A stretch of 64,000 nucleotides of DNA from Anaerolineae bacterium (GTDB taxonomy: Bacteria; Chloroflexota; Anaerolineae; Aggregatilineales; Phototrophicaceae), in NCBI GenBank assembly GCA_022822545.1, contig JAJEBE010000040.1, forward strand, positions 1 through 64,000, written 5' to 3'. The notes beneath the pieces are model-generated. The model made no database searches. It worked only from the letters and a program-made list of their open reading frames with translations, and was not told the origin of the DNA. Of the stretch, positions 4,195 through 5,093 are shown one piece after another. The position numbers were made by a program, and so were the translations under genes. Position 1 is the first letter of the stretch, and each line of letters starts with the position of its first letter.

Positions 4195-5093
4195 TTACAC
4201 AATTCCTGTTTCGTGGCGGTAATTTCTGATCAGCACTTCATTCACCGCTCCTCTTTTGTCACTCTTGCAGTTGACCATCCGCGGCGCTTTTACGTCTCCG
4301 AAAGTGAAAATCGAGCTTGGATACAGCTTCCTGATGAATTCCGTGTCACTATTGGAAAGCATGATCCTCGTCCCGCGCTCATGAAGCACGAGACATAGAT
4401 CACGCAGCGCTTCTTGTTCTGCTTCCGCAAAACCGCCGATGGCATAACTTGTAAAAGATGATGTTTGACTAACGGGATGATAAGGAGGATCGAAGTAGAC
4501 GAAGTCACCTTCGCCAGCGGCAACTTCGGTAAAGCTCGTCGAATGTAGGTCAACACCTTGCAGCGCCCGGTGACAGGCTCTTAAGATATCTGGTTGACAA
4601 ATCGCGGGCTTGACAGAACTACCAATCGGCACGTTGAACTCGCCGCGGCTGTTGACGCGCCATAAACCGTTGTAGCAAGTCTTGTTGAGATAGATGAATC
4701 GGGCGGCTATCTCGATGCGGCCATCGAGGTCGTGTTGACTTCTTATTTCGTAGTAGTAATCTTTGGAGTGTTTCGCCGCGTGTTCATGCAGCTTCTTGAT
4801 GAGGGGCTCTGGGTCGCGCTGGATGACCTGATAAGTGTTGATGAGATCAAAGTTGACGTCACTTAAGAATGCCTGCCCCCCCCCCCCGCCAAATTAAGTT
4901 TTCGCTCATTTTTCAAAGCGAAGAACAGCGCGCCGCCACCGACGAAGGGTTCGTAATAATTGTTGAATTCCGCCGGGACGCGCTCCAGCAATTCCGGCAG
5001 CAAGCTGCGCTTGCCGCCCACCCACTTGACGAATGGTTTTGCCGGTAACGCGCTCTTATCGACAAATTCAGAGGATAACGGTTGCTGTGGCAT
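4195..5093 (-). pseudogene. DNA adenine methyltransferase (Dam/M.DpnII type), frame broken at a G12 tract
   Basis: The enzyme would transfer a methyl group from S-adenosylmethionine to adenine N6, with GATC the usual target of this family. The N-terminal part (5093 down to the tract) has [13 protein letters not shown] and [13 protein letters not shown], the AdoMet-binding motifs. The C-terminal part has [32 protein letters not shown] and the catalytic FDPPYHP. On the coding strand the two parts are joined by GC + G12 + CAGGC. With 12 G the frame reads Gly4-Arg-His-Ser and stops; with 10 or 13 G it runs on to QAFLSDVN and the complete enzyme, about 300 residues. All motifs are intact, so this is either an off-phase switchable gene or a homopolymer sequencing error, rather than a decayed pseudogene. 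No Dam-type endonuclease was recognised nearby. Confidence 0.85.
4876..4887. repeat. C12/G12 homopolymer inside the methyltransferase gene
   Basis: Twelve consecutive C on the + strand (G on the coding strand) lie between codons for KLNLA and QAFLSDVN of the methyltransferase. A change of one or two bases restores or destroys the frame. The tract encodes a Gly-rich loop just before the conserved SDVN segment. Confidence 0.9.

Follow-up and report, generated by a model that had tools for sequence, protein, structure and literature searches.

The methyltransferase gene on the minus strand at positions 4195-5093 of the 64,000-nucleotide stretch of DNA analysed here (the window) is very probably a phase-variable Type II N6-adenine methyltransferase gene of the Dam/M.DpnII family, conserved in a genus of the Chloroflexota. 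The pattern of G runs at this locus and in its relatives points to a natural, heritable on/off switch. Homopolymer phase variation of a methyltransferase is itself a known kind of switch; its setting here is new, namely a separate Dam-type methylase with a conserved tract in uncultured Chloroflexota.

A methyltransferase gene divided by a G tract

The gene was found as two pieces in different frames, separated by exactly 12 C on the plus strand (G on the coding strand) at positions 4876-4887. The frame of the N-terminal piece (4888-5093, minus strand), which is conserved in relatives, starts at 5093, passes motif I, enters the G tract and, as assembled, ends at a TAA codon at 4863-4865 (minus strand), 10 nt past the tract. 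The C-terminal piece (4198-4875, minus strand) contains DPPY and lies in a different frame, which stays open until the stop codon at 4195-4197 on the same strand, where the full methyltransferase frame ends. Both pieces matched the PF02086 profile (MethyltransfD12, 253 positions) above its curated cut-off, the N-terminal piece over profile positions 1-41 (E = 8.9e-11) and the C-terminal piece over positions 45-246 (E = 4.1e-42), and the C-terminal piece also matched TIGR00571 (dam) with an E-value of 3.2e-62 and 210.6 bits against a cut-off of 114.85. By these profile matches, and with motif I and DPPY both present, the gene belongs to the D12/Dam class of N6-adenine methyltransferases, and an earlier note on this DNA, which had described a Dam/M.DpnII-type gene split by a G12 tract whose 12 G stop the frame, was correct in this respect.

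In the 64-kb window, A/T runs reached at most 7 nt, as did G/C runs with the exception of those of 12, 14 and 22 nt, and the G 8-mer occurred 27 times (both strands, overlapping occurrences) compared with a mean of 1.8 in dinucleotide shuffles. The methyltransferase tract is a long, frame-shifting homopolymer inside an open reading frame, as characterises phase-variable genes controlled by simple sequence repeats (SSR). The C22 run (positions 11-32) lies at the contig start and is possibly an assembly end effect, as at other contig ends. The tRNA and Rfam scans of the window returned no match.

In tract-bearing, in-frame database proteins, the site was occupied by two (P0003), three (P0001, P0006 and P0012), four (P0010), five (P0014) or six glycines (P0018). 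These full-length relatives encompass 282-314 amino acids and carry PF02086 alone, and full-length homologues without any Gly run (P0019, P0029, P0031, P0033 and P0046) were found among more distant proteins at 59-65% identity. The structural model of P0010 (mean pLDDT 85.1, approximately 74 in the Gly stretch) places the glycines between the helix of residues 49-56 (motif I) and the strand of residues 69-73. A fold search with this model returned 2dpm (M.DpnIIA) first, with 40% identity and TM-scores of 0.77/0.84, followed by E. coli Dam; the Dam/M.DpnII fold is assigned on this basis to the in-frame relative P0010, not to the window's own protein. A loop tolerating any number of glycines would be a sensible seat for a slippage tract.

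In the mechanism that we propose, slipped-strand mispairing would lengthen or shorten the G tract by one to a few bases. A frame-keeping length would yield a short, variable Gly loop between motif I and the next strand and, with it, a full-length enzyme; at other lengths, the ribosome would meet a stop codon soon after the tract, within a few codons, and would not produce an active enzyme. The window assembly would represent the OFF state. We infer slippage as the mechanism, together with reversible switching in cells, loss of activity in the OFF state and, as discussed below, coupling to a nuclease.

Length, frame and selection across the genus

A total of 61 genomes, one per species, was searched, 34 of which belong to the genus of the window organism, its own genome included. 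A methyltransferase orthologue was identified in 30 of these 34; none was found in G001, G012 and G033, and G007 gave a distant match only. Twenty-eight genus loci were fetched, and in 22 of these the two pieces shared a contig and the junction could be read. Loci L053, L059, L066, L067, L069 and L070 did not enter the frame count, as the junction lay at a contig start, contained N or, for L053, had 70 nt of other sequence where the tract was expected. G016 and G025 lie outside the 28 loci, and the G025 gene has a run of exactly 10 G, which was not counted. A run of 9-15 G was present at the same place in 20 of the 22 readable loci, the exceptions being L051, with six G after an interruption, and L061, with an interrupted run of seven next to five, which brings the range at this site to 6-15 G across all 22, the window's own locus included. 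The recurrence of the run at the same site in related genomes indicates that the tract is no private assembly error. Frame offsets of 0, 1 and 2 between the two pieces were found in 8, 7 and 7 loci, respectively, giving 8 genes in frame and 14 out of frame, as expected for random tract length; variation in length between species or assemblies, both in and out of frame, is again a property of SSR phase-variable genes.

For comparison outside the genus, 546 relatives were confirmed by contig scan and the best 80 kept, 53 of which are outgroup loci (L100-L152, 45-58% identity). Among these best 80 of 546, the longest G run at the site was at most 6 in all 53 outgroup loci, and both pieces lay in one frame in 52 of them, the exception (L147) being a poor match to the N-terminal piece.

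Homopolymer lengths are error-prone in metagenome-assembled genomes (MAGs), and every tract length reported here is an assembly consensus, the exact lengths in single assemblies being uncertain. The earlier note had named a base-calling error as its main alternative, and we consider it unlikely that an assembly or base-calling error in the homopolymer disguises a normal, constantly in-frame gene. Such an error would fit with the fact that all data are assemblies, that contig ends and junk occur at the tract in several genomes, that the window's own contig opens with ten bases followed by C22, and that two tract lengths with identical flanks could equally be assembler noise. Five genomes show a contig break at the tract, leaving both halves at contig ends in G018, G024 and G006 and one half in G016 and G004, and G015 shows N and junk at the tract; contig breaks of this kind would be what a long or length-mixed G run does to a short-read assembly. 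However, the long G run is present at the site in 20 species and in none of the 53 outgroup loci (among the best 80 of 546), which shows that the tract exists, even if individual lengths may be wrong. Moreover, contigs of 2.6-4.3 Mb, which probably derive from long reads, hold full-length (P0014, P0016 and P0026) as well as truncated forms (P0036, P0043 and P0056). With a same-site G run of varied length and frame, purifying selection (see below) and no such run outside the genus, a one-off base-calling error is very unlikely, and the note's proposal of a candidate phase-variable methyltransferase is strengthened by the same observations.

Within species, loci were paired with database proteins whose aligned pieces were 100% identical, the tract length on the protein side being deduced from residues and not from DNA. 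Three pairs could be traced clearly to different contigs, and in two of them the length differed. L064 has 12 G and is out of frame, and P0012, with 100% identical aligned flanks, reads as 10 and is in frame; these two contigs are nearly equal in size (140,545 and 140,465) and may therefore be two assemblies of one sample, with assembler noise as a possible source of the difference. L044 has 14 G, and P0003 reads as a shorter tract plus one further base difference. The third pair, L055/P0041, shared the same length. L046/P0007 and L054/P0039 likewise gave equal lengths, but each of these clusters contains several contigs, perhaps with the locus itself among them, and the pairs may not be independent. 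The pairs L047/P0006, L048/P0010, L051/P0021, L057/P0104 and L065/P0099 have contigs of equal size and are non-independent, and L059/P0056 and L066/P0087 were left out of the comparison.

The frame of the N-terminal piece ends 6-34 nt past the tract in all 14 out-of-frame loci, and in 13 of them the full gene ends 647-678 nt past it; the exception, L060, has a second stop in the C-terminal piece. This piece is open for at least 213 codons in the 13 other out-of-frame loci. In 6 of the 14, translation of the C-terminal frame could begin at a start codon ahead of the tract, giving a product that would lack motif I.

Selection was assessed on the C-terminal piece using a Nei-Gojobori script, with L060, L070, L071 and L072 left out and an OFF group of 13 loci. 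The window gene and its nearest relative, L046, which is also out of frame, gave a dN/dS of 0.20 (dS 0.39), and values among the 25 least diverged pairs ranged from 0.12 to 0.27. Median pN/pS was 0.275 for 78 OFF-OFF pairs compared with 0.324 for 28 ON-ON pairs. As judged from these sequence comparisons, the out-of-frame genes are under purifying selection and as constrained as the in-frame ones. It is therefore extremely improbable that the gene is a decaying pseudogene, with a dead methyltransferase in which the tract was the first lesion, as might be supposed from the 14 of 22 loci that are out of frame, the second stop in L060 and the window, in which no nuclease gene was seen. A pseudogene is also at odds with the C-terminal piece remaining open in 13 out-of-frame loci and with the existence of in-frame copies in 8 species.

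GGG accounts for 9.2% (38/415) of Gly codons outside the tract (L060, L070, L071 and L072 left out), and synonymous divergence is wide (median pS 0.65-0.72) with the tract still long and pure. The rarity of GGG elsewhere, combined with the survival of the run over species-level divergence, indicates that the G run is kept or continually renewed. The methylases are mosaic: the identity between the window and L046 is 0.97-1.00 from approximately residue 150 and 0.67-0.90 before it, a pattern that suggests recombination at the methylase locus.

A further reading is that programmed ribosomal frameshifting or transcriptional slippage yields some full-length enzyme, tract length then setting dosage and not an ON/OFF state. 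RNA polymerase is known to slip on long homopolymers, and the tract-encoded loop tolerates different lengths. However, programmed frameshifting would hold one fixed offset, and all three offsets are about equally frequent (8/7/7), which makes this reading very improbable as a replacement for a phase-variable switch; a leak by frameshifting could exist on top of DNA slippage. Missing mismatch repair was also considered as a cause of the long G tracts and rejected: MutS and MutL each exceeded the cut-off in 33 of the 34 genus genomes, so high slippage is not explained by its absence.

The Leu-Ser pair after the tract (L043-L069) uses codons that are rare elsewhere in the gene, with TTA in 16/27 compared with 19/498 elsewhere and AGT in 21/27 compared with 33/317. 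The stretch TTAAGTGA just past the tract gives a stop in both other frames. Selection for stops beside the tract was discarded as an explanation, as off-frame stops within 45 nt in both frames were found in 44 of the 53 outgroup loci as well as in 25 of 27 genus loci.

Other G runs were surveyed in the window organism's genome (4.27 Mb, 62 contigs), which contains 16 runs of ten or more G. The genus median is likewise 16 (34 genomes, range 0-68) and that of other genomes of the order is 2 (n = 27, range 0-21), counts that junk at contig ends may inflate. The repeat ATACAGTATGTAT (window positions 34712-34746 and L163-L174) is present in 12 copies in this genome, its backward control in none, and 11 of the 12 copies are followed within approximately 30 nt by a G-rich run, G14 in the window; it resembles an intergenic repeat element whose G run varies in length. 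Two ORFs of the same genome, L036 (1595-1605) and L041 (197-207), have a common N-terminal stretch, NSSAF.RPF.IR, followed by a G11 tract, with this stretch and the long ORF in different frames; L041 has a weak PMT_2 match below the Pfam cut-off. A C14 tract also lies at 1643-1656 of L033, inside an open 613-residue ORF that is in frame as assembled and gave no Pfam match. A genus-wide conserved phasome was not borne out by the one other gene tested, the L041 membrane-protein paralogue: the tract was not seen in the 29 other homologous loci read, of which only L176 (79% identity) is close and the rest are at 34-41%, a 70% match in the same genome having been left out.

Gene order and the adjacent nuclease

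The methyltransferase gene of the window is followed, 15 nt past its stop codon, by an ORF of 79 residues (3941-4180, minus strand) with a HKCAYCAYERGY motif and no match in Pfam, NCBIfam or PADLOC. Small Cys-rich ORFs with a KCxYCAYExG(Y/F) pattern lie beside the methylase in many species and may encode an unrecognised restriction-modification accessory protein. On the same downstream side, the window carries a polyphosphate kinase gene (713-2854, minus strand; PF17941, PF13090, PF02503 and PF13089), and in 20 of 27 related loci this side likewise shows a ppk-like ORF with the same N-terminal FINRE(L/I) stretch. The divergent upstream flank is a dehydrogenase E1 component gene (5300-6352, plus strand; PF00676, E = 2.9e-78).

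What lies directly downstream of the methylase varies. Among 27 related loci, the methylase is followed by a PDDEXK_11-type ORF with YxSDRKYLL near its start in 4, by a PDDEXK_11-type ORF of the SQGxxAN(L/M)TG kind in 11 (four of them after a small ORF), by a MutH/Sau3AI-like ORF in 4 and by a CAYCAYE-type small ORF alone in 7, as in the window; L098 is masked and received no assignment. Nuclease families were tested on representatives only, the other loci being assigned by eye. A nuclease gene thus follows the methylase in 19 of 28 species, so the methylase is often not an orphan. In the window itself no nuclease gene was seen, the small Cys-rich ORF alone following the methylase.

In many loci the nuclease ORF begins about 12 nt after the final sense base of the methylase, and a GA-rich stretch overlapping the stop codon is a possible ribosome site, an arrangement that would allow coupling of methylase and nuclease. 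In nuclease-bearing species, where a PD-(D/E)XK or MutH/Sau3AI-like nuclease is next (as appears to be so in most related species, sometimes with the small Cys-rich ORF between), the switch probably acts on an entire Type II restriction-modification module. The resemblance to M.DpnIIA and Dam, together with the MutH/Sau3AI-like neighbour in 4 of 28 loci, suggests GATC as the methylation target; the window holds 363 GATC sites against 441 expected from a simple Markov estimate, a slight depletion that is uninformative.

The nuclease gene is next to the methylase in 7 of 8 in-frame and 8 of 14 out-of-frame loci, and in the latter it is apparently intact. This is the main puzzle, since cells are expected to die of a Type II nuclease that acts without its methylase. 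The nuclease might be shut down with the methylase, a second methylase might protect the DNA, or OFF cells might die; second, weaker Dam-like matches were found in several genomes, not all, and none in the window's genome. The broader proposal of a genus-wide, selectively maintained switch acting on a classical two-gene Type II restriction-modification module, with the G tract in the methylase, is accordingly put forward tentatively, as something that may well not hold. If true, it would place such a switch in the Chloroflexota, for which our literature search found no report of one, and would represent a new answer to the toxicity of phase-variable Type II systems. The concrete question that arises is what keeps a cell alive once the methylase of a two-gene restriction-modification pair is lost.

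Host organisms and known phase-variable methyltransferases

Relatives of the locus are recorded as Anaerolineae/Chloroflexi MAGs, in agreement with the probable Chloroflexota origin given in the earlier note. The contig MPMG01000007 (L099) is part of bin20 from the sponge Aplysina aerophoba (PMC5649159), and bin names such as COS, CAR and RHO are reminiscent of sponge hosts mentioned in PMC8163846, which suggests a similar source. Work on phase-variable DNA methyltransferases has concentrated on host-adapted pathogens; a genus-wide tract with at least one sponge-derived species suggests that phage pressure or life with a host selects such switches in non-pathogens. As the tract is conserved, this idea is testable in existing metagenome reads without culture.

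A keyword literature search, limited to the library and terms used, found no report of such a switch in the Chloroflexota and, by title or abstract start, none of phase-variable methyltransferases in sponge symbionts. For phase variation combined with Chloroflexota, the match listed concerned, by its title, myxobacterial pilus proteins, and for the wider literature the matches listed were, by title, pathogen, sponge-microbiome or general works. The main text of PMC2831843, on homopolymers as a general mechanism, is without mention of Chloroflex or methyltransferase.

Among known systems, M.DpnIIA (2dpm) and the Dam family are alike in fold and sequence (Foldseek 40% identity, phmmer E = 6.7e-65), but M.DpnIIA lacks ten residues around the Gly loop and has a shorter turn there. 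The Type III Mod phasevarions of Haemophilus and Neisseria are likewise switched ON and OFF at random by repeat slippage; their mod genes, however, are Type III, whereas the enzyme here is a Type II member of the Dam family (PMC12456177). In Helicobacter pylori, homopolymers likewise control the Type II methyltransferases M.HpyAIV (GANTC), which is listed as a IIP methylase, and JHP1272/HP1353-1354; for M.HpyAIV, however, the poly(A) repeats are described as intergenic, and JHP1272 belongs to Type IIG, unlike the window methylase; the GATC enzyme of this species, M.HpyAIII, is not described as phase-variable in the available text of the same sources (PMC3936762, PMC12456177). In Campylobacter jejuni, a species whose genomes hold 12-29 polyG/polyC tracts (compared with 16 runs of ten or more G in the window organism's genome), the Type IIG gene Cj0031 also has a polyG tract inside a Type II methyltransferase frame, and a change in its length splits the gene into two frames (PMC4889913). 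A free nuclease without its methylase is described as a lethal problem, and Cj0031, a methylase-nuclease fusion in which both activities are predicted to switch together, provides a way around it, with the tract absent from many homologues (PMC4889913). The genes studied here are not of this Type IIG kind, as the nuclease is a separate ORF in the tract-bearing relatives; in contrast to Cj0031, the methylase is a separate Dam-type enzyme, a nuclease, where one was seen, is encoded by its own gene, and most species of the genus retain the tract.
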